A stretch of 64,000 nt of DNA, from contig NZ_JASTLC010000001.1 in NCBI RefSeq assembly GCF_030499575.1, forward strand, positions 4,550,001-4,614,000, read 5' to 3'. Below are positions 20,228 through 42,514 of the stretch, in pieces; position 1 is the first letter of the stretch, and each line of letters starts with the position of its first letter. The notes under the pieces were generated by a model. That model made no database searches. It was given only the letters and a program-made list of their open reading frames with translations, and was not told the DNA's origin. A program made the position numbers and the translations under genes. This DNA is from Streptomyces sp. DG2A-72 (GTDB lineage: Bacteria > Actinomycetota > Actinomycetes > Streptomycetales > Streptomycetaceae).

Positions 20228-21326
20228 GAGGGCGTTTGAAGTGGGCAGATTGCCGTTTACGTCCTAGCACGTTCCTCGCCAGGCGAGTGTCGTCTCGTCC
20301 GTTATGCGCCTGGCGAGGTTGTCGATCGAGGCGATGTGGATCATGGCCTCGGAGCTGGCGGTGAGGGTCTCGTAGTCGCGGGCGAGGCGGCGGTGCATCA
20401 TGATCCAACCGATACTCCGCTCCACCACCCAGCGCCTTTTCACGACCTGAAAGCCGCGACTCTCCGGATTCCGGTTGACGACTTCGACGTCGATTCCGAG
20501 GGTGGCGCCGTGCTCGACGACGGCATTCTTGAAGCCGGTGTCGCCCCAGCTCTTCGAGATGGTCGGGTACGTCTTCTTCGCCTGGTCGAGGAGGCGGATT
20601 CCCAGGACGTTCTCCGAGAGACCGGCGGCCGTGACGGTCACGGCGAGGATGAGTCCGATCGTGTCGGTGAGGATGCCCCGCTTCCGGCCCACGATCTTCT
20701 TCGCGGCGTCCGTTCCCTGGCTGGTCACGGGCACGTTGATGGAAGTCTTCACGCTCTGCGTGTCGATCACGGATGCGGTCGGCTCAGGATTGCGCCCCTC
20801 TTTCACTCGCGCCAGTCCGGTCAGGTCGCAGTTGAGCTGGGCGAGGATTCCTTCGTCGCGCCAGGCGGCGTAGTAGGCGTAAACGGTGCCGTGGTTCGGG
20901 AAGTCGTGCGGGAGGAATTTCCAGGAGATTCCGGTGCGGTTCACGTAGAGGATGGCGTTGAAGACGTCCCGTAAATCGACCTTGGCCGGTTGTCCGGTTG
21001 GTCTGCGGTCGAGTCGGGCCTTTCTCCAGGCCGTCAACGTCGGCTCGATCAGGGCCCATCGGGCGTCGGACAGGTCGCTGGGGCACGGCTTGCGCTCGCT
21101 CACGGCGTAGCGTGATCACGTGCGAGGCGGATGGCTCGGCTCCGTCGTTCATTGGGCGATTCCACGGCAACTTCAAACCAGACGGACTTCCAGGCATGGA
21201 AGCGAACGAGACGGATGGCTGAGCTTCCGCCCTGGAGACCGCCATTCACCGCCTATGGGATGAAGGCCCCCAAATCAGGGCAGGGGCGAGAGCTGCATTT
21301 AGGGCTTGACCTGCATAAACGCCCTC
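20228..21326 (-). mobile_element. IS5-family insertion sequence, 1,099 bp
   Basis: The ends share the inverted repeat GAGGGCGTTT (left GAGGGCGTTTGAAGTGGGCA; right end, reversed, GAGGGCGTTTATGCAGGTCA). The element is flanked on both sides by TGA (20,225-20,227 and 21,327-21,329), a 3-bp target duplication of the TNA type seen in part of the IS5 family. It carries one intact transposase gene. The remaining 220 bases on the right side are non-coding. Intact ends, duplication and frame suggest a recent insertion. Confidence 0.8.
20264..21103 (-). CDS. IS5-family DDE transposase
   Basis: A full-length 279-residue single-frame transposase. The N-terminal DUF4096-type domain reads CPSDLSDARWALIEPTLTAW and VFNAILYVNRTGISWKFLPH. 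The DDE core includes the first Asp in ASVIDTQSVKTSIN, then GRKRGILTDTIGLILAV, and the C-terminal Glu region in VVKRRWVVERSIGWIMMHRR. All catalytic regions are present, so it is probably active. It starts at 21,103, and the gene fills most of the element. Confidence 0.93.
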   Translation of the reverse strand: MSERKPCPSDLSDARWALIEPTLTAWRKARLDRRPTGQPAKVDLRDVFNAILYVNRTGISWKFLPHDFPNHGTVYAYYAAWRDEGILAQLNCDLTGLARVKEGRNPEPTASVIDTQSVKTSINVPVTSQGTDAAKKIVGRKRGILTDTIGLILAVTVTAAGLSENVLGIRLLDQAKKTYPTISKSWGDTGFKNAVVEHGATLGIDVEVVNRNPESRGFQVVKRRWVVERSIGWIMMHRRLARDYETLTASSEAMIHIASIDNLARRITDETTLAWRGTC

Positions 21327-27280: not shown

Positions 27281-27617
27281 ACGTTCCCGCCACACCGCGA
27301 CCCCCGGGGATTGGCGTCAGACTGGGCCCTACCGGGTGCTTAAGCGGCTGGGCGGGGGCCGGATGGGGCGGATGTTCCTTGGCCGTTCCCGTTGTGGCCG
27401 ACTGCACCCCCGAACAGCAAGAACGGGAGCGCAGGCCCCGGCCTCGACCGACTGAGACATCTCCACGATCACGCCGGAGAACACCGCTGCATAGGCCGAG
27501 GCGGGGATCAGCACTACCATGAGCGAACGATCAGACAGACGTTCGTCTCACCGTTCCGTCCCCTTGGGACGGACAAAGGCCAGCGTCAATGAGAAAGGGA
27601 CACGACGAAATGCGAGT
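27281..27617. other. 337-base gap, no gene recognised
   Basis: Nothing convincing reads here. A minus-strand frame holds a hydrophobic stretch (MVVLIPASAYAAVFSGVIVE) that could be the scrap of a small membrane protein. An interrupted palindrome (CGAACG...CGTTCG) lies at about 27,523-27,544. The gap joins the intact FAD operon to the conjugation remnants. Confidence 0.45.
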
Positions 27618-28595
27618 CTACAACCGGCTCGCAGCTGGGCGAGTCGCACCGAGATAATCGTCGCCGGGGTAGCGGTATCGCTCCACGCGCACCTTCTCGC
27701 CGGCCGCGGTGCGTTGATCATATGTCCGCTGCCGATGTAAAGCCCGACATGGTGCACGTTCGACGGGGTTCCGTAGAAGACGAGATCTCCCGGCAGTAGT
27801 GGCGCGTCAGCCGGTACCCGCGGTCCTGCGTTGTACTGATCCTGCGCTACCCGCGGCAACGTGATTCCCGCCGCAGCGTACGCTGCCTTGGTCAACCTCG
27901 AGCAGTCAAAACCGCCACTGACCAGTGGCTCTCCCGAGGGAAGTTCAGTCAACGAGGGACCGTTGCCGCCCCACTCATAGGGGAGTCCGAGCTGGCCTTG
28001 GGCGTAGTTGATCGCCTGCAGGGGCGGCGGCGGTCGGAGTGGTGTCGGCGCCGAAGCCTGTGTCGCTGGTGTACGTCTGGGCGTGGGTGAGGACTTGTGA
28101 GACGTACGAGTCGTCGGGGTTGTAGGTCTTGATGGCGCCGGGGATGTTCTTGCCGGCTCGGGTGCCGGAGTCGCATAGGTACGCGGCGGCGGCGTAGATC
28201 GCGTCCTGCTTGTTGTACGGCGAGGGCGGGGTGGCTCCGCCCTTCGGCGGCGGGTGTTTGGCGATGACGCTCTGGAAGGTGGGTAGCAGGAACTGCATGG
28301 GCCCGCGGGCCCCGGCCTCGATTTTAGTGCCCCTGGGGACGCCGGGAAGTGTCGAGCGGCCATGGTCCGATTCCCGCTTGCCGATGCCGGCCAGGACGGA
28401 CCAGTCCAGGCCGGGACAGGTGGCGGCGGCGTCCATGTAGAGGGAGAGGTAGTCGGATGGGATGTCGGTGAGTACGGCCCTGCTGGGCTTGCTGCCGCTG
28501 CTGCCGAAGGCGGACAGCAGGCCGCCGGCCCCGGCGCTGCCGAGGACGGCGACCAGCATCAGCAGTCCCAGGGCCGCGGCGGCGATCTTTCCCAT
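27618..28595 (-). pseudogene. Lytic transglycosylase / NlpC-P60 peptidase of a conjugation system, two frameshifts
   Basis: ATG at 28,595 begins a membrane-anchored protein (MGKIAAAALGLLMLVAVLGS). Its goose-type transglycosylase domain includes the catalytic Glu in AGIGKRESDHGRS (about residue 75). At about 28,010-28,030 the frame shifts into an NlpC/P60 domain (AINYAQGQLGLPYEWGGNGP, SGGFDCSRLTKAAYAAAG, NVHHVGLYIGSGHMI). A missing G at about 27,712 shifts it again before RVERYRYPGDDYLGATRPAA and the native TAG at 27,618-27,620. Canonical F-D-C-S-G is F-D-C-S-R. Such two-domain wall hydrolases open the cell wall for type IV secretion. This copy is dead. Confidence 0.85.
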
Positions 28596-28601
28596 GGCCG
28601 C

Positions 28602-29648
28602 TCACCCCTGTGGGCGACGGTCCGGCGGGCCGGGCGGGAGCGGGGACGGCGGCAGGAGCCCGTTGACCAGGTCGCCGTTGGCCTCTGCTGGGTCGCTCGA
28701 TGAGTTGCCCAGCGGTGGCAGTTGCGGCCAGGCGCGGGTCAGTTCGGCGAGACGTAGGCGTCGGGTGGAGGGCTGCCGGACGTCCAGCGGCTGCCAGCGG
28801 GCCGCCGTGGGGTCGTTGTCCTGGCCGTCGAGGAAGTCCGCGCTGGAGGTAGCCACCGGTACCAGCGACGGATCGTCGAGATCGGCCAGAGCGGCTGCCA
28901 GCGCGCGGCGAACCCGTGCCTCCCGGCGGGTCGTTGGCACCCAGACCAGAACGGGCGTGGTGATGCCGGTGGTGGCGGCCAGCTTGGCGTAGCCGGCGAG
29001 TTTGCGGCCGAGGCGGTCCGGGCGTTCGGTGCCGAAGTCGAACTCCAGGAACCACTCCAGCGCCGCAGGCGTGGGGCTGTTCTCGTGCCAAAGGCCGTAG
29101 ACGTCGGGGCGGACGATGTCGCCGAAGTGCCTGGCGCAGCGGGTCTCCGACCACCAGGCGGTGAGTCGGCCGGACGTGTCCGGGCGGCGGGAGCGGGCGA
29201 CGAGGGCGCGGAAGAAGCCGTTGGTGCCGACGGTGTGGGCCAGGTGCAGGGAGTAGGCGATGCCGGTCGCCCGGTCGAGCCGGTAGTCCAAGTCCCGCAG
29301 TTCCAGACCGTCCTCGCGGGCGAGCAGGGCGGCCCCGGCGAGGTCGAGGACGTAGTGCATGGGGGCGGTGCCGTAGGTGACGAAGGGCTGGAACCGGTCG
29401 ATCAGCCGCCACCGGTACAGCCGCAGCAGCCGCATGTTGGCTGCCCGTACCGACGGCCAGGCCATCTCGACGATCTGGTGGGTGGTCAGGACCCGGTGCT
29501 CGTAGAGCATGCGGGCTAGCCACCGGTCCCGCTCGGTCAGGCGGGTGGCGAGGTGGGCGACGTAGCCGCTGGTGATGGAGGTGCGATGGCTGGGGCGTTG
29601 GGGCTGGTGCCCGCGCAGGGAACGCTGCGGTGTGGGGTTGGTGATCAA
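28602..29648 (-). CDS. Replication-relaxation family protein
   Basis: The 348-residue protein has the Replic_Relax domain of actinobacterial integrative elements and plasmids. The N-terminal winged helix reads TERDRWLARMLYEHRVLTTH and IVEMAWPSVRAANMRLLRLY. The family core HTVGTNGFFRALVARSR and YGLWHENSPTPAALEWFLEF follows. These proteins sit beside conjugation ATPases and are thought to take part in DNA processing. TTG 29,646-29,648 is chosen because GGAGG precedes it by seven bases; the open frame upstream is low-complexity. It ends six bases before the transglycosylase start, so they form one operon. Confidence 0.82.
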   Translation of the reverse strand: MITNPTPQRSLRGHQPQRPSHRTSITSGYVAHLATRLTERDRWLARMLYEHRVLTTHQIVEMAWPSVRAANMRLLRLYRWRLIDRFQPFVTYGTAPMHYVLDLAGAALLAREDGLELRDLDYRLDRATGIAYSLHLAHTVGTNGFFRALVARSRRPDTSGRLTAWWSETRCARHFGDIVRPDVYGLWHENSPTPAALEWFLEFDFGTERPDRLGRKLAGYAKLAATTGITTPVLVWVPTTRREARVRRALAAALADLDDPSLVPVATSSADFLDGQDNDPTAARWQPLDVRQPSTRRLRLAELTRAWPQLPPLGNSSSDPAEANGDLVNGLLPPSPLPPGPPDRRPQG

Positions 29649-29745
29649 GGCGGTGCACCTCCGGAGAGAGGCAAGGGATCGGGTCGTGGAGTGGCGGTCC
29701 GGCTGGCCGCCGCACGCGATGGGCGGCGGGCGGGAGTCCGGGCGC

Positions 29746-30711
29746 TCAGGTGGGGCGGCGCGGGTCCGTCGCCTGCTCGCCGGTCGCCTTGCGGGTTGAG
29801 GCCGGCTGGAGGCGGGCGTTGCGGCGGGCGGCGGCGCGGATCTGCTTGGCCCGGCCCGGGACCGGCGGCGGCAGCGGTTCGGTGACCGCGGTGAAGGCGG
29901 GGGCTTCAGCACCGTGCAGCACCGTGCGGATGACGGCGTGGAAGGCGTCGAGGTTCGACAGATCGTGCGCGGTCACCCGGGGCTCGGTGTGGCGGGCCAG
30001 GTGGCGGGCGTCCTCGGGCGATGCGTTGAAGAAGATCTTGGTGCGGGCGTTGGTGCTGACGCCCTCCTCCAGTTCCTTGGGCAGCTGGCGCAGGTACTGA
30101 TGGGCGAGCGTCATGGACAGCCGGTAGCCGCGGGCCTCGGCGAGCATGTCCTCCAGCGCGTAGGGCAGGTTGAGGAAGTTGTGCGCCTCGTCCAGGTACA
30201 TCCCGGCGTCCGGGCGCTGGCCCTGGGAGATGTGGGCGCGGCGGGTGGTGGCCTGCCAGGTGCGGGCGACCACGATGGAGCCCATCAGGTGGGCGGTCTC
30301 GGTGCCCAGGGCGTCCTTGGCGATACGGACCAGGCAGATCCCGCCGTCGAGGACGGTGGCCATGTCGACGGTGGAGGTCCCTCCGGCGAGGGCGGCGCGG
30401 ACGAAGGGGCGCAGCAGGAAGCCGCGGAGCTTGTTCATCAACGGGGCGGTGACCTGGGCGCGGGCCGGGCCGGACAGGGCGTCGTACCAGGACCAGAAGC
30501 CCCGCAGGACGTCGTCGTCGATCTGGTCGACGGCGCGCTGCCGAAACGAGGGGACCGCCAGCAGTTTGGGCAGGTCGGTCAGGACGGGGATGCCGCCCTG
30601 GGCCCGCAGGGTGAGCAGCCCGGCACGCAGGATGTCGTCGGTGCGCGGTCCCCAGGGGGCTCCGACAGCACGGCCGATCCGTGAACTCCTCCGCAACGCG
30701 GACGAGTTCAC
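29746..30711 (-). pseudogene. Type IV secretion/conjugation ATPase, N-terminal half missing
   Basis: Only the C-terminal part (from about WGPRTDDILRAGLLTLRAQG) of a VirD4/TraG-like ATP-binding protein remains. The Walker B region is clear (RPDAGMYLDEAHNFLNLPYA), followed by RLSMTLAHQYLRQLPKELEE and TKIFFNASPEDARHLARHTE, but Walker A and the membrane anchor are absent. The coding sequence breaks at about 30,665 at the edge of a 43-base palindrome. The replacement N-terminus (MNSSALRRSSRIGR) is the palindrome read as protein. It cannot work as a coupling ATPase. Confidence 0.85.
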
Positions 30712-30847: not shown

Positions 30848-30945
30848 CACCGGTGTGGAATAGCGTAGATCGCTACTGCTAGTGTTCATTCAGTCACAGT
30901 AGGCAATCAGCCTCGACGTACATGTAGTGAAAGACCGAGGGTTCC

Positions 30946-31254
30946 ATGCGCAAGCTTCAGCAGGTCATGATCGTCGCGGCGGCGGCCGGCAGCCTGACCG
31001 CCGTCGGTGCCGGTGCCGGTGCCACGGCCGCCTACGCCGACGGTGGCGGGCACGGCCACAAGTCCGACCGGCCGCACGTGTCCCACAAGCAGGCCCCCAC
31101 CCGGGCGCAGGTGTCCGTCACCGACCTCTACCGGCCGTACCAGGAGTGCAGCCCGCAGACGGTGGCCGAGGGCGACCTCCCGATCGGCCTGCTCGGTCTC
31201 GCCGAGACCTTCGACACCACCTGCGGCCAGTTCAACAACGCCTTCACCGACTGA
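30946..31254 (+). CDS. Small secreted protein, ECSPQ family (1)
   Basis: A 102-residue protein with a Sec signal peptide (MRKLQQVMIVAAAAGSLTAV, likely cut after AYA). The mature part starts His-rich (GGGHGHKSDRPHVSHKQ) and then has VTDLYRPYQECSPQTVAEGD and a second Cys in FDTTCGQFNNAF, so one disulfide is possible. The L-[YF]-R-P-x-Q-E-C-S-P-Q motif and the C-G-Q near the end recur in the protein at 34,381-34,872. The layout is faintly like rodlins, but I cannot claim that family. Start codon and leader (ACCGAGGGTTCCATGCGCAA) match those of the paralogues. Confidence 0.75.
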   Translation: MRKLQQVMIVAAAAGSLTAVGAGAGATAAYADGGGHGHKSDRPHVSHKQAPTRAQVSVTDLYRPYQECSPQTVAEGDLPIGLLGLAETFDTTCGQFNNAFTD

Positions 31255-31343
31255 GATCGGCGGCACAGTCGTGCACGACGCCTTCGCGGGCCCCGACGCA
31301 CCAGTGCCTTCAGCAGGCCGTCCCTTCACTTCGTAAGCGAATT

Positions 31344-31383
31344 GGACCCCAGCGCCCCGGACATCTGCCGGACGCCGGGGTCC
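31344..31383 (+). terminator. Hairpin terminator between secreted-protein genes
   Basis: GGACCCC...GCG pairs with CGC...GGGGTCC, 90 bases after the stop codon of the first secreted protein and upstream of the next. Confidence 0.55.
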
Positions 31384-31459
31384 GCCTCTCCGACACCCCA
31401 GGACCCGGCGCGGCCGGTTCACGGCGCCCGGGGCACCCCTCACCAAGGAGACGCAACAC

Positions 31460-31822
31460 ATGTTCAACGGAAAGAAGATCGCGGCCGTCTCGGGGCTTCT
31501 CGGCGGCCTCGCCATGACCTTCGTCGGCGTCAACCAGGCATACGCGGCAGGAGGCCCGGGCGTCTGCTCACTCGACGCCGAGGGCAACATCGTCTGCACC
31601 CAGCGGATCGTGGGCCAGACGCCCGAGGGTGACGGGTTCACCGTCCGCCGGAGCGTGAACTGCCAGCCGACGGAGCCCCTGACCCTGCCCGCTCCCGGCC
31701 TGCTGAACAACGGGCAGACACGGATCGGGCCGCACATCACCTGTTCCGGCCCGACGCCCGAGGCGCCGGCCGCCGACAACAGTGACAACATCACGCCGCT
31801 GCAACGCCTGCTGGGCGGCTGA
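31460..31822 (+). CDS. Small secreted four-Cys protein (1)
   Basis: A 120-residue protein with signal peptide (FNGKKIAAVSGLLGGLAMTF, likely cut after NQAYA). The mature part has four Cys arranged C-x8-C-x24-C-x30-C: GVCSLDAEGNIVCTQRIVG, VNCQPTEPLTLPAPG, then NGQTRIGPHITCSG. The same pattern, G-x-T-R-[IV]-G-P-x-[IV]-x-C-S and a Cys before the Pro-rich stretch, is seen in the protein at 32,809. Function unknown; two disulfides are likely outside the cell. AAGGAGACGCAACAC precedes the ATG. Confidence 0.75.
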   Translation: MFNGKKIAAVSGLLGGLAMTFVGVNQAYAAGGPGVCSLDAEGNIVCTQRIVGQTPEGDGFTVRRSVNCQPTEPLTLPAPGLLNNGQTRIGPHITCSGPTPEAPAADNSDNITPLQRLLGG

Positions 31823-31861
31823 ACCCGGGCTGACCTCCCGTCAGCCTCCTCAACTCACCAG

Positions 31862-31905
31862 CAGCGGATGGCCGGACCAGGGCGACCTGGTCCGGCCATC
31901 CGCTG
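31862..31905 (+). terminator. Strong hairpin terminator
   Basis: CAGCGGATGGCCGGACCAGG pairs perfectly with CCTGGTCCGGCCATCCGCTG around GCGA, 39 bases after the four-Cys protein stop codon. Confidence 0.9.
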
Positions 31906-32156
31906 TTTCGGCAAACGGGTGACCGCGCCCCACTGCCCGTGACTCCCCCTCGGGGAACCGTCGTTGCCACAACAACACCGACTCTCTCACCCCTCTCCAA
32001 GTCCACGGCAACAGGCGGACGAAAGGGGTGCCTCGGCATGAGCCGACACGACACACAGAAGGGCAATAGATCCCAAATTGCTACGGTTCGCGTGTATATG
32101 CTCACACTAAGTAGTCAAGCCAGGGCTTCACGCCCCGGAAAGAAAGGGTCAATTCA

Positions 32157-32489
32157 ATGCGCAAGTTTCAGCGCGTTGCGGTCGTAGCCGCAGCGGTCGC
32201 AGGGCTGTCCGCCTTCGGTGCCGGCGCCGGCACGGCCTCCGCCCACGAGGGCGGCTGGGACGGACCGGACATCACCGCGGTGGCCACCTCGCAGGCCAAC
32301 GCCGTGGCCACGTGGGGCGCTCCGCACGGAAAGCACTCCGCTCCGCACCGGGCTGCCGCGCCGGAGGCCGCTCCCCAGGCCGCGCCCCAGCCTGCTCCAC
32401 AGGCCGCCCCCCAGGCCGCTCCGTACGCTCCCCAGTACGCCGCGCCGGAGGGCTTCGGCGAGTACTCCGCTCCTTACATCGCCAAGTAA
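32157..32489 (+). CDS. Small secreted Ala/Pro/Gln-rich protein (1)
   Basis: A 110-residue protein with signal peptide MRKFQRVAVVAAAVAGLSAF, likely cut after GTASA. The mature chain is His/Trp-containing (HEGGWDGPDITAVATSQANA) and then low-complexity with repeated AAPQAAPQPAPQ and a Tyr-containing end (YAPQYAAPEGFGEYSAPYIA). No Cys. It resembles the larger repeat protein at 35,287. Such disordered, Pro-rich secreted chains are usual in cell-surface or matrix proteins. The leader is homologous to those of its neighbours. Confidence 0.72.
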   Translation: MRKFQRVAVVAAAVAGLSAFGAGAGTASAHEGGWDGPDITAVATSQANAVATWGAPHGKHSAPHRAAAPEAAPQAAPQPAPQAAPQAAPYAPQYAAPEGFGEYSAPYIAK

Positions 32490-32507
32490 AGAAGCGCCGA
32501 GGGTTCG

Positions 32508-32585
32508 ATGCGCGAATTTCAGGGCACTGCGATTGTCGTCGTGACGACGGCGGGGCAGGTGGCACCGCATTCCGCACCACATTGA
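32508..32585 (+). pseudogene. Dead copy of a small secreted protein gene (signal peptide only)
   Basis: After GCGCCGAGGGTTCGATGCGC, a 25-codon frame reads MREFQGTAIVVVTTAGQVAP and ends at TGA. Both the leader and the first residues match the live paralogues (MRKFQRVAVVAAAVAG), but the mature part is gone. It lies 18 bases after the stop codon of the gene at 32,157, so it is the stump of a tandem duplicate. Confidence 0.65.
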
Positions 32586-32808
32586 GCCCCCAGGCCGTTT
32601 CGCAGGCATATCGCCTCGGAGCGTCACGGCAGGCGCATCGAATTCCATCGGAACACTTTATGCACATCGCACGATGTGAAGGCAGCCCGGACGCGCGGCA
32701 GACCCACCAGGGTGCGCGCCCGGGCTGCAGCAATGCCATCGCCGGACGCAGCTGATATCGCGCCGGGCGATGGCTCTGGCATTTCGGATCCGCAAAGGAA
32801 CGCAGCAC

Positions 32809-33153
32809 ATGATCGGTCGACAGAAGATCGCAACCATCTCGGGGCTCGTCGGAACCCTCGCCGTGATCTACGGCGGCGCCGGGCAGGTGTACGCCGCAGT
32901 GCCCTCGCATGATTGCAAGACCTCCGCCCAGGGTGACATCACGTGTGTTCGCAAGAGCGAGACCGCCCGCAAGGGCAAGGACGGCACTGTCGTCCAGCAG
33001 AAGCACGACTGCTCGACGGTCGAGCGGCCGCGCCTGGTGTTCCCCCAGCACGGGATGGGGAACAGCGGCACCACGAGGGTCGGGCCGGTCGTGGACTGCT
33101 CCAACAAGGTGGAGCTGCCCAAGGGGTTCAAGCTGCCTAAATTCGATTTCTGA
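32809..33153 (+). CDS. Small secreted four-Cys protein (2)
   Basis: A 114-residue paralogue of the protein at 31,460. Signal peptide IGRQKIATISGLVGTLAVIY, likely cut after GQVYA. The four Cys are in SHDCKTSAQGDITCVRKSE, KHDCSTVERPRLVFP and GTTRVGPVVDCSNKVE. Compared with the first copy the mature domain is basic (many Lys) and lacks the acidic tail. ATG 32,809 is preceded by AAAGGAACGCAGCAC, nearly identical to the other copy's site. Function unknown. Confidence 0.75.
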   Translation: MIGRQKIATISGLVGTLAVIYGGAGQVYAAVPSHDCKTSAQGDITCVRKSETARKGKDGTVVQQKHDCSTVERPRLVFPQHGMGNSGTTRVGPVVDCSNKVELPKGFKLPKFDF

Positions 33154-33164
33154 AGCGCGATCGA

Positions 33165-33203
33165 AAAATGCCGGACCGGGATTGCTCCCGGTCCGGCATT
33201 TTT
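33165..33203. terminator. Bidirectional terminator between convergent secreted-protein genes
   Basis: AAAATGCCGGACCGGGA pairs with TCCCGGTCCGGCATTTT around TTGC, with A and T tracts on the two sides. It can end both the four-Cys gene (plus) and the SHD-family gene (minus). Confidence 0.92.
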
Positions 33204-33231
33204 CAGGGGAAGGGATCAGCCCTTACTGCCC

Positions 33232-33573
33232 TTACTTGCCACCGAAGGTGTTGTTGCAGCCCATGGACGAGCCCAGGCCGGTCTCCTGCGCGCCCGGGTT
33301 GCCCTCACCGTTCAGCAGGTTGCCGGCCGCACCGTCGAGGATGCCGACCTGGCCGAGGATGCTGACGTTGGCGTCGTGCGACCTGCAGGTCGTGCTCTGC
33401 GCGACGTTGAGGGTCGGGCTGCTCTTGCGGCCTTCGTGGTGGCTGCCGTGGTGGCCCCGATCGCCCGAACTCCAGCCGCCCGGGCCCCCGTCGGCGTGGG
33501 CGGTACCGGCGCCCAGGAGCCCGACGCTCCCGAGGGCGGCGACCAGAACGGCGGCCTTGCGGAGCTTGTGCAT
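33232..33573 (-). CDS. Small secreted SHD-family protein (1)
   Basis: A 113-residue protein with signal peptide (HKLRKAAVLVAALGSVGLLG, cut after GTAHA). After a Gly/His-rich spacer comes the family core: STTCRSHDANVSILGQVGIL, DGAAGNLLNGEGNPGAQET, then GLGSSMGCN. Two Cys bracket the core. The G-N-x-L-N-G-E-G-N and M-G-C-N motifs are the same in the copies at 33,840 and 36,099. I know no function. I chose the second ATG because GGAG is correctly spaced only from it. An inverted repeat shared with the next copy lies just upstream. Confidence 0.75.
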   Translation of the reverse strand: MHKLRKAAVLVAALGSVGLLGAGTAHADGGPGGWSSGDRGHHGSHHEGRKSSPTLNVAQSTTCRSHDANVSILGQVGILDGAAGNLLNGEGNPGAQETGLGSSMGCNNTFGGK

Positions 33574-33600
33574 GTTCATCTCCGATGGAGTGAAGTGGTG

Positions 33601-33617
33601 CGATCTGTAACAGATCG
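33601..33617. promoter_or_regulatory. Palindrome upstream of SHD gene 1
   Basis: CGATCTGTAACAGATCG has perfect 8-base arms around one base, 28 bases upstream of the start codon. The same site, slightly changed, is at the same place before the second copy. The surrounding 70 bases are also alike (GACTTCGTAC-GTTAC). Confidence 0.65.
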
Positions 33618-33761
33618 ACTTCGTACGGTTACAGAGGGTAATAGGAAGAATTTTGGAGCACTCAGCGGCACGCCGAATTCAGGGAATTCTCACCGCCTTG
33701 GCCGATGCCGGAGAATTCCCTTTACTCAATAATAAATAGCAATATCAGTGCGCCACGGAAA

Positions 33762-33800
33762 AGGCCCCGGCACCGAGCCTGACGCTCGGTGCCGGGGCCT
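33762..33800 (-). terminator. Hairpin terminator of SHD gene 2
   Basis: AGGCCCCGGCACCGAGC pairs with GCTCGGTGCCGGGGCCT around CTGAC. It lies downstream of the minus-strand gene ending at 33,840. Confidence 0.9.
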
Positions 33801-33839
33801 GTTTTCCGGCTGTCGGCCGCCTGTGCGACCGTCGCGCGA

Positions 33840-34133
33840 TTAGAACGCGCTGTTGTTGCAGCCCATGGACGAGCCCAGGTGGGTGTCCTGACCACCGGCG
33901 TTGCCCTCGCCGTTGAGCGCGTTGCCCAGCAGGCCGTCGAGGATGCCGACCTGGCCGAGAACGTCGAGGTTCAGGTCGTGCGACTTGCAGTTGGAGCTCT
34001 GCAGGACGCTGAACTTGCCCCCGTCCTTCTTGCCGTGACCGTCCTGGCCGTTGGCGCTGGCGGTGCCGGCGCTCAGGATCCCGACGCTGCCGAGGGCGAC
34101 GACCACGACGGCGGCCTTGCGAAGCTTGTGCAT
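33840..34133 (-). CDS. Small secreted SHD-family protein (2)
   Basis: A 97-residue paralogue of the gene at 33,232. Signal peptide HKLRKAAVVVVALGSVGILS, cut after GTASA; a Lys/Gly-rich spacer; then SSNCKSHDLNLDVLGQVGIL, DGLLGNALNGEGNAGGQDTH and LGSSMGCNNSAF. The two Cys are kept. The repeated hydrophobic L-D-V-L-G-x-V-G-I-L stretch suggests a beta or amphipathic element for self-assembly or membrane contact (inference). It has its own promoter with the shared palindrome. Confidence 0.77.
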   Translation of the reverse strand: MHKLRKAAVVVVALGSVGILSAGTASANGQDGHGKKDGGKFSVLQSSNCKSHDLNLDVLGQVGILDGLLGNALNGEGNAGGQDTHLGSSMGCNNSAF

Positions 34134-34162
34134 GTCATCTCCGGTGGAGTGAGAAGTGGGTG

Positions 34163-34179
34163 CGATCTGTGAAAGATCG
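34163..34179. promoter_or_regulatory. Palindrome upstream of SHD gene 2
   Basis: CGATCTGTGAAAGATCG: six-base arms CGATCT/AGATCG around five bases. It sits at the same distance from the start codon as its counterpart at 33,601. Confidence 0.6.
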
Positions 34180-34287
34180 ACTTCGTACAGTTACGGGAGA
34201 TTAATACGAAGTATCCCAAGATGCCCGGCGACGCGCCGGGTTTCGTGATCGCGTGGCGGAAGCACCCTGACGCCGCATCAGATACGA

Positions 34288-34325
34288 ACGGGCCCTTGAC
34301 GAGGTCGATCCTCGAAGGGCCCGTT
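34288..34325 (-). terminator. Hairpin terminator of ECSPQ gene 2
   Basis: AACGGGCCCTT pairs with AAGGGCCCGTT, with an inner GAGG/CCTC stem. It is downstream of the minus-strand gene ending at 34,381. Confidence 0.85.
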
Positions 34326-34380
34326 GCGGGTCGATCAGCTGCCGTTCGGTCTGCTCAGGCGGACGGCCGGCGTTGCTGCC

Positions 34381-34872
34381 CTAGCGCGTGGTGGTGGCGC
34401 GGGCGTGGGCGAGGGAGTTCGCCTGGCTGTTGGTCTGACCGCAGTCGATGCCGCGGTTCTCGGCGGCGGCGAGTACGGCGACCGGAACAGCCGCGTTGAG
34501 CAGGGACTGCGGGCTGCACTCCTGGGACGGGCGGAAGAGGTTGGTCTGGCCCACCTCACCCTGTCCCGGGCCCGTGTGCGGGGCCGCCTGCGGGGAGATG
34601 TTCGGGCTGAGCTTCGGGTTGAACTGGGGGTTGACCTGCGGGCTGACATCGGCGCCCCGCGTCGGGAGCGCCATCCGCCGCGGGGCCGACGAGCCGGAGT
34701 TCTGCGACGTGGCCTGGGCGGAGGTCATCGAGGTGGCCTGGGCGTCCTGCTGCGAAACGGGCGGCGGAGCACCGTTGTACGCCACAGGGGCGGAGTGGCT
34801 GGGGCCGGCACCGACGGTGGACAGACCTCCGGCTGCTGCGACGACGAGCGCGACCTGCTGAAGCTTGCGCAT
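34381..34872 (-). CDS. Small secreted protein, ECSPQ family (2)
   Basis: A 163-residue paralogue of the gene at 30,946. Signal peptide RKLQQVALVVAAAGGLSTVG; then a Ser/Ala/Gln-rich region (QQDAQATSMTSAQATSQNSG) and a repetitive stretch VSPQVNPQFNPKLSPNISP. The family core is NLFRPSQECSPQSLLNAAVP followed by NRGIDCGQTNSQANSLAHA. P-Q-V-N-P-Q-F-N-P is shared with the large repeat protein at 35,287, linking the two families. It is divergent from that gene across a 414-base gap, and both leaders contain CAGGT-ATGAAGGGCCGAGG. Confidence 0.75.
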   Translation of the reverse strand: MRKLQQVALVVAAAGGLSTVGAGPSHSAPVAYNGAPPPVSQQDAQATSMTSAQATSQNSGSSAPRRMALPTRGADVSPQVNPQFNPKLSPNISPQAAPHTGPGQGEVGQTNLFRPSQECSPQSLLNAAVPVAVLAAAENRGIDCGQTNSQANSLAHARATTTR

Positions 34873-35286
34873 GAAACCTCGGCCCTTCATTGACCTGTGC
34901 ACGGAACGTATTGCGTTGCTGATGACCAGTGCGGCTGTTGCTGGAACGAGCCAAGTGCGGCGTCAGTCACGTGAGTCGGGGTGTGGTCACCCATTTGCTG
35001 CGACCAAAAAACAGAACCGATAATCCGACCGATGGCAAATGAGTGACGGCGTTTCTCACCCCGTGACCAGGCCGGGGGAAATTTCGTTGCCAGCTGAGAG
35101 AGGGCAGCGATCATGAATTCAGAGAGGGCAGTTGGGATCGGCTGTCGGCTCCAGCGTGAAGTCCACATGACAGCCCAGGAGTTACCCCTGTTAGGGCGCA
35201 GCACGAACATCAGACTGAGCGCACGCAAGACTGCACTGAATACAACGGATTTTCCCTGTACAGGTAATGAAGGGCCGAGGGGTTCC
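34873..35286. promoter_or_regulatory. Divergent control region of two secreted-protein genes
   Basis: No gene is seen in these 414 bases. The outer 40 bases on each side are homologous inverted leaders (CTGTACAGGTAATGAAGGGC and the corresponding minus-strand copy). An 11-base direct repeat AGAGAGGGCAG occurs at 35,097 and 35,121. The middle is relatively AT-rich, as expected for promoters. Confidence 0.55.
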
Positions 35287-36036
35287 ATGCGCAAGCTTCA
35301 CAAGGCCGCGCTCGTCGTAGCAACGGCCGGCGGTCTGTCCGCCATCGGCGCCGGCGTCAGCCATGCCGACTCTCCCGGGTACGGCGGTGTCAGCGCGGCG
35401 CCTCCTCCCCCGTACTACCCGGCACCTCAGTACTACGCCCCGGCGCCCGCGCCCCAATATCAGGCGCCTCCGCCGCAGTACTACGCACCGGCACCCGCCC
35501 CCCAGTACCAGGCGCCTCCGCCGCAGTACTACGCGCCCGCGCCCGCCCCCCAGTACCAGGCGCCCCCTCCGCAGGCCACGGCGGTGGCCCGTTCGCAGGG
35601 CACGGCGGAGGCCAGCGGTCCGCATTCCTACGCCCAGCCGGCGCCCCAGTACGCACCTCCGGCGCCTGCCCCGCAGCACAGCGGCCAGGCCTCCGCCGTT
35701 GCCGCGGCGACCGGCAACGCGCACGCCTCCAGCTCGCCGCACGGCTCGCAGCACGCCCCCGCCCGGCAGCCGGAGGTCGTGCCGCAGGTCTCCCCGCAGA
35801 CGGCGCCGCAGGTCACTCCGAAGGTGGCCCCGCAGCTCGACGTACCCCAGTTCTTCGAGCCGGAGCCCGCGCCTCGCGTCGCCCCGCAGGTGAACCCGCA
35901 GTTCAACCCTGAGGTGAACCCGCTCATCAACCCGCTGATCGCGCCGACCGGCGGCACACCGCAGGTGCCCGGGCTCGGCCTCGGTCAGGTCGCGGCGCCG
36001 CCCGTGGGTCAGTTGGGTCTGCCCCGACTCGGCTGA
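35287..36036 (+). CDS. Secreted Pro/Tyr/Gln repeat protein
   Basis: A 249-residue secreted protein. Signal peptide RKLHKAALVVATAGGLSAIG, cut after GVSHA. Residues about 48-95 are three exact-length 16-residue repeats QYYAPAPAPQYQAPPP. Next come Ala/Ser/His-rich and Pro-rich parts, then VVPQVSPQTAPQVTPKVAPQ and VAPQVNPQFNPEVNPLINPL at the C-terminus. No Cys. Tyr/Pro/Gln repeats of this type are usual in elastic or adhesive surface proteins and in substrates for cross-linking; that role is inferred. ATG 35,287 follows GCCGAGGGGTTCC. Confidence 0.78.
   Translation: MRKLHKAALVVATAGGLSAIGAGVSHADSPGYGGVSAAPPPPYYPAPQYYAPAPAPQYQAPPPQYYAPAPAPQYQAPPPQYYAPAPAPQYQAPPPQATAVARSQGTAEASGPHSYAQPAPQYAPPAPAPQHSGQASAVAAATGNAHASSSPHGSQHAPARQPEVVPQVSPQTAPQVTPKVAPQLDVPQFFEPEPAPRVAPQVNPQFNPEVNPLINPLIAPTGGTPQVPGLGLGQVAAPPVGQLGLPRLG
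35428..35571. repeat. Three 48-bp in-frame tandem repeats
   Basis: Units start at 35,428, 35,476 and 35,524 with CAGTACTACGC. They encode QYYAPAPAPQYQAPPP three times, differing only at silent positions, so the protein repeat is under selection while the DNA drifts. Confidence 0.9.
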
Positions 36037-36098
36037 TCGCCTCACCGCAGTTCGTCATTCCGCCCGTTCAGTTCATCCGCTCGTTCAACGGAGAAGAA

Positions 36099-36371
36099 AT
36101 GCGCAAGCTTCAGAAGGCCGCTCTCGTGGGCGCCGTCCTCGGCAGTGTCGGCTCCTTCGGCGTCAGCCCTGCCGTCGCACACGGGCCGGGCAACGACTTC
36201 GACGTCAACCAGAGCATCGAATGCCGCTCGCACGACATGAACATCGACATCCTCGGCAGCATCGGCGCCATCAACGGCGCGCTGGGCAACGCGCTCAACG
36301 GCGAGGGGAACCCGGGTGCGCAGCCCACCGACCTCGGTTCGGACATGGGCTGCAACAGCGAAGCGTTCTGA
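36099..36371 (+). CDS. Small secreted SHD-family protein (3)
   Basis: A 90-residue protein, the shortest SHD-family member. Signal peptide RKLQKAALVGAVLGSVGSFG, cut after SPAVA. The mature part is almost only the core: SIECRSHDMNIDILGSIGAI, NGALGNALNGEGNPGAQPTD, LGSDMGCNSEAF. It lacks the upstream palindrome of the two other copies. It is the last secreted-protein gene and immediately precedes the acyltransferase operon, with a terminator hairpin between. GGAGAAGA precedes the ATG. Confidence 0.77.
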   Translation: MRKLQKAALVGAVLGSVGSFGVSPAVAHGPGNDFDVNQSIECRSHDMNIDILGSIGAINGALGNALNGEGNPGAQPTDLGSDMGCNSEAF

Positions 36372-36447: not shown

Positions 36448-37704
36448 ATGGCGACCTATCGCATGAGACTGTCCTGTGCCGACGAGATGCTGCTGTTCAA
36501 CGGGTGTCCGGGAGTTGTCGGTCTGGCGGCGGTCTTCGCCGGTGAGCAGCCCGATGTGGCGCAGGTGCGGGCGCGCGTCACCGAGCGGTGGGCAGGTCTG
36601 GAGCGGATGAACTGTGTGCTCGACCGTCCGCAAAGCAGCGGCGGGCGCGCGCGGTGGGTCGTACCGGGGCCGTTCGACCCCGATGTCCATGTCGTCCTGG
36701 CTCGGCACAAGTTGGACGACCTGTGGGCGCGGAGCGTGGACCAGCCGCTGGTCGGCGGGGTGCCGCCCTGGCGGCTGTACGTGGTTCCGGACGCGGCGTA
36801 CGGCGGTTTCGCCCTGGCGCTCGTGGCGCAGCATGTGCTGCTGGACGGGCGCTCGCTGGCCACGTTGATGCGTTCGTTGATGGACAGTCCCAAAGCGGTG
36901 AGGGCGTCTGCCCGGCCGGCGCCGCTGTCTCGTGCCGGGCTGCGAGCGGTGGGCCGGGAACTCAGGGTGATGACGGCCGTGGGACAGGCCCTGCCGATGC
37001 CGTCGCCGGGGCGGACGTACTCCTCGGTCGCGGTGAGCGCGCTGTCGGCGCACACGGTCCGGGCCGCCCGTCGGCAGCCTGCCGACGGGCGGGGCTCGAC
37101 GCTGAACGAGCTGCTGGTGGGCGCGGTGGCCGGGGCGATGCGGGATCGGTACGGTCCGGTACGGCGGTGGCGGCAGCGGGATGAACCCGTGTACACGGCC
37201 GTGCCGTGTGATCTGCGCAGCCGGGCCGATCCGGGCGAACTGGGCAACGCCCTCACGGTGATTCGGGTGCCACTGCCCGTCGACGTGGACGGGCCCGTGG
37301 CGCGGCTGCGGGCGGGTCAGGCCGCGCTGGCCGCGGTTCCCGCACGGGCCGCCGTGCACGCCACGGTGCTGTTTCCCGCGGCTGAGGCGGCACGGCGGAC
37401 CGGCCCTTGGGTGACCAGGCTTCTCACCAACCGTGGTCGCCACTCCTGCTTCGCGGCGACCGCGACGACGGCCGTCAAGTGGCCCGGCGGATCGAGCACG
37501 TTCCAGGGCCACGCGCTCGTGCGCACTGTGGGGCTGCCGCCCCTGCACCACCCGGGCACCGCCAGCTTCGCCCTGGCCCAGGCAGGGGACGCGGTCACGC
37601 TGACCGTGGTGTGCAACCTGCGCCCGAACGACGCGAGACGGCTCGCCGACGCGGTCGTCACGGAGTTTGAGACATGGGCTCGGACGGCGACGCCATCACT
37701 GTGA
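36448..37704 (+). CDS. WS/DGAT-like acyltransferase (1)
   Basis: A 418-residue member of the wax-ester-synthase/condensation-domain superfamily. The active-site H-H-x-x-x-D-G appears as AQHVLLDGRSLATLMRSLMD near residue 128: the first His is Gln, the second (catalytic) His and the Asp are kept. Family features follow: RRQPADGRGSTLNELLVGAV, PVYTAVPCDLRSRADPGELG and the C-terminal GDAVTLTVVCNLRPNDARRL. Such enzymes move acyl groups from CoA or ACP to an alcohol or amine. It is the first gene of an operon with an ACP and a ketosynthase, so the donor is probably the ACP. Soluble, with no signal peptide. Confidence 0.82.
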   Translation: MATYRMRLSCADEMLLFNGCPGVVGLAAVFAGEQPDVAQVRARVTERWAGLERMNCVLDRPQSSGGRARWVVPGPFDPDVHVVLARHKLDDLWARSVDQPLVGGVPPWRLYVVPDAAYGGFALALVAQHVLLDGRSLATLMRSLMDSPKAVRASARPAPLSRAGLRAVGRELRVMTAVGQALPMPSPGRTYSSVAVSALSAHTVRAARRQPADGRGSTLNELLVGAVAGAMRDRYGPVRRWRQRDEPVYTAVPCDLRSRADPGELGNALTVIRVPLPVDVDGPVARLRAGQAALAAVPARAAVHATVLFPAAEAARRTGPWVTRLLTNRGRHSCFAATATTAVKWPGGSSTFQGHALVRTVGLPPLHHPGTASFALAQAGDAVTLTVVCNLRPNDARRLADAVVTEFETWARTATPSL

Positions 37705-37728: not shown

Positions 37729-38007
37729 ATGGACGTGGAACACGTGGACGTATGGGAAGCGCTGCGCCCGCTGTGCGCGCGGGTGATGTCGGTGCCGGTG
37801 GAGGCGGTCGTGCCGCAGGCCCGGCTCGTCGCCGATCTGGGCGCCGACAGTCTGGACATCACCGAGCTGCAGGCGGCGTCGGAGGACGAGTTCGGGGTGT
37901 CCCTGCGTGGAACCGACACCTCCGGGGTGTCCACCGTGGGTGATGTCGCCGACCTCATCGTGAGGCTGCGCACCCACGCCGGCAACGGCCCCCTCGCCGC
38001 CCGGTGA
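37729..38007 (+). CDS. Acyl carrier protein
   Basis: A 92-residue stand-alone carrier protein with the phosphopantetheine site LVADLGADSLDITELQ (Ser at residue 41) and the helical bundle around it. It is acidic, as usual. It is not the primary fatty-acid ACP: it lies between a specialised acyltransferase and a ketosynthase. Its TGA overlaps the ketosynthase GTG, so translation is coupled. It should carry the acyl chain built or extended by the ketosynthase. Confidence 0.93.
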   Translation: MDVEHVDVWEALRPLCARVMSVPVEAVVPQARLVADLGADSLDITELQAASEDEFGVSLRGTDTSGVSTVGDVADLIVRLRTHAGNGPLAAR

Positions 38008-39212
38008 CGCCCCGCCACGCCGTCGCCGTCACGGGCCTGGGGGTTCGCTGCGCGGCCGGAGCGACGCCGGCGGCGCTGTGGGCGAGTCTGGTGGAGTGCC
38101 GTTCGGCGATCTCGCTGCACGCCTTCGACGACGAGGGAGCCGTCGTATATCCGGCGGGTCCGATGAGCGACTTCGACCCGAGTGGACAGCTGACGCCCAA
38201 GGAGGTGCGGCGGGCCGACCGTTCGGTGCAGTTGGCGGTGTGTGCTGCCGTGGACGCCGTGGAGGATGCCGGAGGGCTGCATGTGCCGGCCGAGCGGCGG
38301 GCCGTGGTCACCGGGACCGGCTACGGCGGGGTGATCAGTCAGGAGAACGGCATCGGGCGGCCCGATGTGCTGTACGCGTCGCGGCTGATGCACAACGCGG
38401 GGGCGTACTGGGTCAGCGCCAAGCTCGGTATCACCGGCCCCAGTCTGACGGTCTCCACCGCGTGTGCGTCCGGGACGCATGCGGTGGGTGAGGCGCTGCA
38501 GATGATCCGGGTGGGGGGCGCGGACGTGGTGGTGGCGGGGGGGCACGAAGCTCCGCTGACTCCTACGACCGCGCTGGCCTTCGGCCGGTCCGGCGCGATG
38601 GTCACCGAGTGCGAGGATCCCGCGGCCGCGTCACGGCCGTTCGACGAGGGGCGGCGGGGCTTCGTCCTCGCCGAAGGGGCGGCGTTCCTGGTGCTGGAAC
38701 GGCTGGACCTGGCCCGCGCGCGGGGCGCCCGGATCTACGCCACGCTCACCGGGTACGGACGCACCTCCGACGCCTACCACCTCACGGCACCGCATCCCGA
38801 CGGCGCCGGTGCCCGGGCGTGCATGGAGCAGGCGCTCGCCGACGCGGGCACGACGGCCGACGCCGTCACCCATGTCAACGCGCACGGCACCGGCACCCAG
38901 TTGAACGACCTCGCGGAGGCGCAGGCCATCACCGCCCTCTTCGGTCCCGGTGGGGTGCCCGTGACCGCCCCCAAGGCGGTGACCGGCCATGCGCTGGGGG
39001 CGGCGGGAGCGGTGGAGGCCGTGATCGCGGCCTGGTCGGTGCGTGAAGGGCTCGCGCCGCCGACCGCCCATCTCACGCGGCTGGACCCCCGATGCGAACT
39101 GGACGTGGTCACGGCCGAGCCACGCAAGATCCCGGACGGCCCGGTGATCAGCAGCAGTTTCGCGTTCGGCGGCCACAACGCCTGTGCCGTGTTCGACTCA
39201 CCCGACGGTTGA
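38004..39212 (+). CDS. Beta-ketoacyl-ACP synthase, FabF-like
   Basis: A 402-residue KAS II-type condensing enzyme. The catalytic triad is complete: Cys154 in VSTACASGTHAVGEA, His294 in VNAHGTGTQLND and His329 in KAVTGHALGAAGAVE. It therefore can catalyse decarboxylative Claisen condensation and is not a chain-length-factor (Gln) paralogue. There is no second ketosynthase, ketoreductase or dehydratase in the operon, so those steps must come from primary fatty acid synthesis or the enzyme makes a single elongation. GTG start overlapping the ACP stop. Confidence 0.92.
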   Translation: MTPRHAVAVTGLGVRCAAGATPAALWASLVECRSAISLHAFDDEGAVVYPAGPMSDFDPSGQLTPKEVRRADRSVQLAVCAAVDAVEDAGGLHVPAERRAVVTGTGYGGVISQENGIGRPDVLYASRLMHNAGAYWVSAKLGITGPSLTVSTACASGTHAVGEALQMIRVGGADVVVAGGHEAPLTPTTALAFGRSGAMVTECEDPAAASRPFDEGRRGFVLAEGAAFLVLERLDLARARGARIYATLTGYGRTSDAYHLTAPHPDGAGARACMEQALADAGTTADAVTHVNAHGTGTQLNDLAEAQAITALFGPGGVPVTAPKAVTGHALGAAGAVEAVIAAWSVREGLAPPTAHLTRLDPRCELDVVTAEPRKIPDGPVISSSFAFGGHNACAVFDSPDG

Positions 39213-40537
39213 TCACCCAAGGCGGGGGCCCGGGCAGCTGCACCACCAAGGAAAGAGGCTGTGGAACATGAGGCTGTCGGCCTTCGACGAGGGGCACCTC
39301 CGCAATGGGCTGCCGGGGACGATCGGCATCGCCGCGGTGTTTCCCGGAACGCCGTTCGACCTGGAGCAGGTGCGGTCCCGTGTCCGCGGGCGATGGGGCG
39401 ATCTGGACCGGATGAGCCAGGTGCTGCAGCCTCCCGCCGGGCCGGCGGCGCTGTCGGGCCACCGGTGGTCGGCCGCCCGGCCCTTCGATCCCGCCGCGCA
39501 CATCACCGCCACGGACCAGGACCTGGACTCTCTGCTGACCGTCGGCGTCGGGCACCCGTTGCCGCCCGAACGGCCCCTGTGGCGGCTGCTGGTGGTCCCG
39601 CACGCCACCCCGGCGGGCGAGCACGCCATCGTGCTGCTCGCCCATCACGCGCTGCTGGACGGCAGATCCCTGGAGACGCTCTTCCGGATGCTGATGGACG
39701 ACGCCGCACCGCCGTCCACGCTCGGACCGGCTGCGGCAGCGGGGCGCCCGCGCATCAAAGCGGCCACCGTGTTCCGGGAGTTGCACCGCATCGGGGTCCC
39801 CAGCCAGCCCCTTCCGCCGGCGCCCGCCGACGGCATGCGGCCGTCGGTGGCCATGGTCGGACTCGACCCGCAGACCATGCGCACGGCCCGCCGCCAGCCG
39901 TCCGGCGGGCGGGGAGCGACGCTCAACGAGCTGCTCCTGAGCGCCTACGCCGGCGCCCTCCGCGCCTGCTACGGGCCCCTGCGGTCCTGGCCGAAGGGAC
40001 CGACCCCCCTCTACGCCACGGTGCCGGTCGACCTGCGGACCCGGCACAGCGCAGGGCAACTCGGCAACGGCGTCACCGTCCTGCGCATCCCGTTGCCCGT
40101 CGACATCGCATCGCCGGTGGACCGTCTGCAGGCGTGCCAGGATCTGGTCGCCGCGCTGCATCACCGCTGCGACGCCCACCGCGCGATCCTGCCCGCACTG
40201 CAGGCCTCCGCGCGGACCGTGCCGTGGCTGGCCGAGGTGATGGCCAAGCGCCTGGCGCGCCCCGAGATCACCACCAGCCTGTGCACCGCGTTCAAATGGC
40301 GGGACAGCCCCAGCCAGTTGTACGGCCGTCCCCTGGCGCGCATCGTTCCGCTGCCGCAGCTGTCCCCGCCGGGCACGGCGAACCTCTGCCTCGTCCACAC
40401 CGCCGACGCCTACACCCTGACCGTCGTCAGCCATCTGCGTGCCGGTGACGCCGAGATGATCGGCGCTGCCGTGGCCCGGGAGCTGCAAGCGGTGGCGGCG
40501 TCCGGCGCCCCCGCCACGCGTCGTACGGAGCCGCGGC

Positions 40538-42514
<1,977 letters not shown>

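Follow-up and report, generated by a model that had tools for sequence, protein, structure and literature searches.

The closest described counterparts of the locus analyzed here are two groups of small secreted proteins, the rodlins (RdlA/RdlB) of Streptomyces, which have two cysteines and duplicated genes, and the chaplins (PF03777). Passages of a 2013 review (PMC4255298) describe rodlins as 'lost readily' and name S. avermitilis, S. griseoflavus and S. hygroscopicus as species that lack them. A third comparison is offered by lipid systems that combine WS/DGAT proteins with an acyl carrier protein (ACP) and a beta-ketoacyl synthase (KAS). The locus lies in a window of 64,000 nucleotides (C1:4550001-4614000) from the 10.6-Mb genome of Streptomyces sp. 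DG2A-72, and coordinates refer to this whole window unless a genome is named. Reading of the open reading frames (ORFs) of the window identified nine short ORFs and one broken leader copy at 30946-36371, belonging to four families: ECSPQ (two genes), four-Cys (two), SHD (three) and Pro/Gln-rich (PQ, two). We interpret this unit as a cassette, inherited as a whole, whose structural proteins would form part of the outer coat on aerial hyphae and spores and may build the spore ornament, and assign this interpretation a probability of roughly 0.45. The Sec signal peptides of the nine proteins were assigned by eye. The genes are:

30946..31254 (+), ECSPQ1, secreted, 102 amino acids, two Cys (ECSPQ ... 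CGQ)
31460..31822 (+), 4Cys1, secreted, 120 amino acids, four Cys, own leader MFNGKKI
32157..32489 (+), PQ1, secreted, Ala/Pro/Gln-rich, 110 amino acids, without Cys
32508..32585 (+), broken leader copy, start-region block and 25 codons (MREFQGT...), then a stop
32809..33153 (+), 4Cys2, secreted, 114 amino acids, four Cys, leader MIGRQKI
33232..33573 (-), SHD1, secreted, 113 amino acids, two Cys, CRSHD ... LNGEGN ... MGCN; alternative start at 33579
33840..34133 (-), SHD2, secreted, 97 amino acids, two Cys
34381..34872 (-), ECSPQ2, secreted, 163 amino acids, NPQ/SPQ repeats followed by the ECSPQ ... CGQ part
35287..36036 (+), PQ2, secreted, 249 amino acids, Pro/Gln/Tyr/Ala-rich repeats, without Cys
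36099..36371 (+), SHD3, secreted, 90 amino acids, two Cys

A sequence-only reading of the window had reported nine small secreted proteins of four families and a dead copy in this interval, and the ORFs and the broken copy, whose mature part is not recognisable, confirmed this. The peptide PQVNPQFNP, reported as shared between an ECSPQ protein and the repeat protein, is present in both ECSPQ2 and PQ2. An almost identical start had been claimed for all nine proteins; this holds for seven of them, which have an M-R/H-K-L/F leader, but not for the four-Cys pair. At the DNA level (positions -25 to +75 of the nine intact genes) the leaders form three groups, with identities of 62-72% within ECSPQ1/PQ1/ECSPQ2/PQ2, 59-74% among the SHD genes and 68% between the four-Cys genes. 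The profiles of SHD and ECSPQ can be aligned (95% probability) only across the leader of 28 residues, so that related secretion leaders appear to carry mature parts of different families. The cluster observation as such is sound and reaches further than that reading saw, to a conserved nine-gene cassette.

For the analysis of conservation we used 101 Streptomyces genomes, the genome of the window (G000) and 100 genomes drawn evenly from the genus. The SHD family occurred in 21, the ECSPQ family in 18 and the four-Cys family in 19 of them. All three Cys-containing families were found together in 17 genomes (about one in six), in each case at a single locus, except for one genome with a split over two contigs; the surplus family matches outside these 17 (G018, G026, G027, G032, G096) were weak. 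Nineteen stretches from the 16 other cassette genomes and two of the weak ones were compared with the window. All nine genes were present on one stretch in identical order and orientation in 12 of the 17 genomes, the window counted. These 12 include L101 with an extra SHD gene, L107 with an extra SHD fragment and L098, where a contig end cuts ECSPQ1. In the remaining genomes the nine genes were spread over two contigs (L113/L114), seven genes were followed by a contig end (L112), a gap was located at PQ2/SHD3 (L110), or PQ1 was diverged or replaced (L104 and L115, the latter also with an extra SHD). ECSPQ1 was found in 20 of 21 aligned loci, the window included.

A second sample was assembled from named genomes, using 80 named loci from a CarD scan, the first 71 of which were tied at 100% identity; it covers 78 genomes, S. 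griseoflavus and S. achromogenes being left out. ECSPQ2, our marker for the presence of the cassette, was detected in five of the 78: S. humi, S. musisoli, S. zinciresistens, S. barringtoniae and S. plumbidurans. The last four contain all nine genes in order, and in S. humi a contig edge falls inside ECSPQ2. S. humi and G084 of the genus sample are probably one genome, judged from their near-identical coordinates. Among the matches listed (the best 120 of 181, 120 of 233 and 120 of 209), all organism-named protein matches belonged to Streptomyces.

The ratio of nonsynonymous to synonymous substitutions (dN/dS) against L103, the closest relative compared, was 0-0.55 for the nine genes, which are short and show low divergence, and on this comparison they are under purifying selection. 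A strain-local gene expansion, as had been proposed from the window, is rejected, since the cassette is kept in order in 17 genomes of the 101-genome sample, the same nine genes standing in the same order across the genus; the unit thus appears from its gene order to be an old cassette that was inherited or moved as a whole. The synteny search across Streptomyces that had been suggested as a check bore the cluster out, with order and orientation kept and 12 of 17 loci complete.

SHD-related genes were also seen outside the cassette. Two loci, L105 (G026:C6:229278-231354) and L106 (G027:C1:5856246-5857723), come from genomes without ECSPQ and contain a smaller array of weak SHD-like copies next to weak four-Cys-like genes; this could be an ancestral version of the cassette or a reduced one. 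Three further SHD-family genes lie elsewhere in the genome of the window (G000 C1:892669-892959, 3816506-3816748 and 4308792-4309067); roughly 350 bases upstream of the gene at 892669, the opposite strand has a leader-like ECSPQ match.

For the seven ECSPQ, PQ and SHD genes, upstream regions were aligned with those of up to nine relatives' loci. The following elements were located:

30894..30909 (+), motif TCACAGTAGGCAATCA, upstream of ECSPQ1, conserved in relatives
32102..32117 (+), motif TCACACTAAGTAGTCA, upstream of PQ1, same class as the ECSPQ1 motif
33613..33632 (-), conserved block GTAACCGTACGAAGTCGATC, upstream of SHD1
34175..34194 (-), conserved block GTAACTGTACGAAGTCGATC, upstream of SHD2, the SHD1 block being a variant of it

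The region upstream of ECSPQ1 shows a conserved CTACTGCTAGTGT...TCACAGTAGGCAATCAGCCTC arrangement and that of PQ1 a related TCACA-TA-G-A-TCA motif; close variants of CACAGGTAATGAAGGGCCGAGGGTTCC are present upstream of PQ2 and ECSPQ2. The pattern derived from PQ1 and ECSPQ1 had no further exact match in the whole host genome. A wider TCAC...TCA regulon was rejected: beyond the two cassette sites, four sites had one mismatch, and the reversed control gave three matches. Taken together, the cluster is more than a chance assembly, because its gene order is kept elsewhere, the dN/dS values are low and the upstream blocks are conserved.

None of the nine proteins reached the curated cut-offs of Pfam or NCBIfam, and none had a PHROG match (E <= 0.001); the lone Pfam match below the cut-off was DUF4148 on ECSPQ1 (E 2.7e-4). 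The profile searches that the sequence-only reading had recommended therefore placed none of the four families in a named one. With a limit of E 1, the chaplin domain PF03777 matched none of the nine. For profile comparison with hhalign we used a rodlin profile of 19 sequences, in which the S. griseus rodlins were aligned with others, and a chaplin profile with domains from 15 places. The rodlin profile gave a probability of 2.1% with ECSPQ and 3.3% with SHD, in both cases in the leader region only, and the chaplin profile gave 2.4% over 10 columns with SHD and 0.1% with ECSPQ; these comparisons cover the ECSPQ and SHD families and used shallow alignments (effective number of sequences, Neff, 1.5-2.3), so that a very remote relation is possible. 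Membership in the chaplins or rodlins is rejected on these two results, the missing PF03777 match and hhalign probabilities of 0.1-3.3%, in agreement with the earlier statement that the proteins are neither. The faint resemblance to rodlins that had been noted for ECSPQ did not hold up, with a profile probability of 2% confined to the leader. A sequence search of the PDB yielded nothing for SHD and two chance-level matches in the repeat part for ECSPQ.

Some database names refer to these two groups: among the matches listed, at least five homologues of ECSPQ2 carry the UniRef name 'RdlA protein' and at least three homologues the name 'Chaplin domain-containing', and the SHD end ...GN...C-N recalls chaplins. 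The cassette differs from rodlins in its unrelated profiles (2-3%, leader only), in comprising nine genes of four families and in its tendency to occur where rodlins are missing. It differs from chaplins in that its nine proteins lack PF03777, while true chaplins (six domains) are encoded elsewhere in the genome of the window.

The distribution against rodlins was analyzed in the genus sample using a two-sequence rodlin profile. Rodlins were detected in 75 of the 101 genomes; none were found in the genome of the window with this profile. They were present in 4 of the 17 cassette genomes and in 71 of the 84 others (Fisher p=1.7e-6), a p value that overstates independence, because the operon-bearing cassettes described below form a single clade and independent events are few. 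Strict mutual exclusion is rejected, since both occur together in 4 of 17 genomes. The observed anticorrelation is a tendency and not an exclusion, given this coexistence and the small number of independent events, and its significance is inflated by shared ancestry. Of nine cassette genomes examined for chaplin domains, seven have 6-7 and the remaining two have 14 and 17; five cassette-free genomes have 8-11.

Nine of 45 cassette-free named genomes also lacked rodlins, among them S. iakyrus, S. fumanus, S. melanogenes and S. luteolifulvus (the genomes of L120, L130, L136, L145, L148, L153, L154, L161 and L165; one of the nine, a metagenome-assembled genome, is possibly incomplete). This points to a further type of coat. 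A record named Kitasatospora aureofaciens (L160, genome G143) gave two rodlin matches (E 2e-52); rodlins may thus not be confined to Streptomyces, unless this strain is misnamed.

Directly after SHD3 a lipid operon follows, with domains assigned by Pfam:

36448..37704 (+), WS/DGAT-type acyltransferase a, first gene of the operon
37729..38007 (+), acyl carrier protein
38004..39212 (+), beta-ketoacyl synthase
39262..40602 (+), WS/DGAT-type acyltransferase b, start codon provisional

A search that scored 17 candidates per genome found acyltransferase a at >=77% identity in nine of the 101 genomes (that of the window included), and in all nine it adjoined the SHD3 gene of the cassette. The next-best matches (43-60%) came from three cassette-free genomes (G093, G045, G043). 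The same arrangement was observed beside the cassette of S. zinciresistens. In a tree of cassette proteins from 21 loci the ten operon-bearing cassettes grouped in a single clade with full support, and none of their genomes had rodlins. Like the known WS/DGAT systems with ACP and KAS, the operon encodes two WS/DGAT-domain proteins together with these two components; unlike them, it is tied to a predicted coat-protein cassette, in one cassette clade. The linkage suggests that the operon makes an apolar lipid for the same surface as the cassette. On the other side, directly before the cassette, the region 27548-30711 encodes NlpC/P60, Replic_Relax and TraG/TraD C-terminal domains (Pfam) and looks like the remnant of an integrative element. 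Further left, a probable DDE transposase ORF at 20264-21103, recognized from its translation, hints at a past insertion.

From these observations we infer when and where the cassette would be expressed, how its products may assemble and what they could build. The nine proteins would be exported by Sec, and we consider it quite probable that they belong to the coat of the aerial phase. A fibrous scaffold could be formed by the extended Pro/Gln-rich chains (PQ1, PQ2 and the repeat arm of ECSPQ2). Proteins with two Cys (ECSPQ, SHD) or four Cys would cap this scaffold and, through disulphides, cross-link it into an insoluble layer above the chaplins. The adjoining WS/DGAT-ACP-KAS operon of one clade would add an apolar ester lipid. 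In a minority of Streptomyces the cassette would replace or supplement the rodlet layer of the rodlins, and its layer would build the spiny, hairy or rough ornament of the spore. That it makes this ornament specifically is a tentative proposal, to which we give somewhat less than even odds.

The ornament of the spore (smooth, warty, spiny or hairy) has for decades been a main taxonomic character in Streptomyces. Such spore properties are called predictive in a passage of PMC5559561. We collected 30 named cassette species, 24 through the ECSPQ2 marker (among the matches listed), four through named genomes and two (S. echinatus, S. regalis) because one of their proteins is identical to one encoded in a cassette locus. 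The cassette locus was read for eight of the 30, directly in S. musisoli, S. barringtoniae, S. zinciresistens and S. plumbidurans and through exact protein identity in S. echinatus, S. regalis, S. ferrugineus and S. halobius; SHD3 of S. echinatus is identical to that of a complete cassette. According to the relevant passages of the papers cited, S. naphthomycinicus, S. cellostaticus and S. echinatus are spiny and S. musisoli is rough (PMC11061393), S. glaucescens is hairy and S. griseoflavus, which is outside our genome samples and not counted below, is spiny (PMC5307326, the latter in Table 1), and S. piniterrae is spiny (PMC7232196). Similar passages describe a spiny strain of S. noursei (PMC12417419), which differs from the marker-bearing strain, and a spiny S. 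sediminimaris with smooth early spores, whose group also contains S. spinosirectus, S. plumbidurans and S. spinosisporus, the last of these spiny as well (PMC12166134). S. viridochromogenes, spiny in a passage of PMC12705811, has SHD3 homologues and, as a candidate cassette species, was not counted. Spore surfaces were described in these passages for eight cassette species, and seven of them were spiny, hairy or rough, in a tally that is biased because the papers were mostly found by searching 'spiny'; of these species the loci of S. echinatus and S. musisoli were read and the others were assigned by the marker. The cassette-free named genomes included no smooth species with a paper-described surface for comparison. 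The literature on S. humi, S. zinciresistens, S. barringtoniae, S. chromofuscus, S. filipinensis, S. lanatus, S. canus, S. bungoensis, S. bicolor, S. ferrugineus, S. actinomycinicus, S. regalis and S. griseochromogenes gave no usable description of the spore surface, nor did that on S. iakyrus and other cassette-free species; general surface labels for all of these, and for the smooth species of a prior prediction, were used as evidence only in the case of S. iakyrus. Names referring to spines are carried by 3 of the 30 cassette species and by 8-11 of 1195 taxa of the genus (P 0.0007-0.002, in a test chosen post hoc). We take spinosirectus, spinoverrucosus and echinatus to be such names. S. 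spinosirectus and S. plumbidurans are near relatives with identical ECSPQ2.

Several results, in addition to the bias of the surface tally, weigh against the proposed role in coat and ornament. Cassette and rodlins occur together in G016, G020, G084 and G085, and among the named genomes in S. humi and S. musisoli. After removal of the nine sampled genomes of the operon clade, rodlins were present in 4 of 8 cassette genomes versus 71 of 84 others (p=0.036), and in the named sample (50 of 78 genomes searched, 19-sequence profile) in 2 of 5 versus 36 of 45 (p=0.08). For 22 of the 30 named species the cassette was assigned from the ECSPQ2 marker. S. iakyrus, known as a spiny species, lacks the cassette, so that a prior prediction failed; it also lacks rodlins. 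The type strain of S. lydicus, the eighth species of the tally, is described as smooth in a passage of PMC7232196, and its cassette marker comes from one strain, maybe not the type. The AlphaFold2 models of SHD and four-Cys proteins had mean predicted local distance difference test scores (pLDDT) of 49 and 47, too low for use.

The best surviving alternative is a secreted coat cassette of the aerial phase that replaces rodlins in hydrophobicity, attachment or water control and is unrelated to the visible ornament. The rodlin distribution, the wax-ester-type operon of one clade and the cassette-free S. iakyrus would all fit such a coat, but the surfaces described for cassette species are mostly ornamented in the biased sample of passages, and spine names are in excess in the post hoc test; we regard this alternative as rather unlikely, though likelier than the following two. 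Pro/Gln-rich repeats and small Cys-containing domains are common in matrix proteins generally, and the nine proteins could accordingly be surface or matrix proteins of the vegetative mycelium, with a role in adhesion, biofilm or substrate contact and not in development. The anticorrelation with rodlin, a spore-coat protein, and the low chaplin-domain number in seven of the nine cassette genomes, compared with the five cassette-free ones, make this improbable. Antagonistic or signalling peptides of a bacteriocin-like kind, clustered for competition, would also be small, secreted, mostly Cys-containing clustered paralogues, but no immunity, protease or transporter gene was seen inside the unit, its fixed order and purifying selection are unlike variable arrays, its sequences are Gly/Asn- or Pro/Gln/Ala-rich and no PHROG, Pfam or NCBIfam match was found (PADLOC was not searched), so that we consider this very improbable.

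Among the open-licence papers of PubMed Central (PMC) that were listed (at most 30 per listing), we found no description of such a nine-gene cassette, which agrees with the sequence-only reading. Nor did any paper in these listings deal with a gene for the ornament of Streptomyces spores, although such papers may exist. A bolder reading, which we hold a little more cautiously than the ornament itself, is that the cassette would be the first genetic locus for this ornament, a nine-component sheath of Pro/Gln fibres that is neither chaplin nor rodlin, cross-linked by two-Cys and four-Cys proteins, replacing rodlets and coupled to a wax-type lipid in one clade. As a 5.5-kb unit of nine small genes that is often located in rodlin-free hosts, and that several species with spines or hairs contain, the cassette opens the genetics of the spore ornament to a direct test, and it offers four unnamed protein families for the study of coat or fibre assembly.

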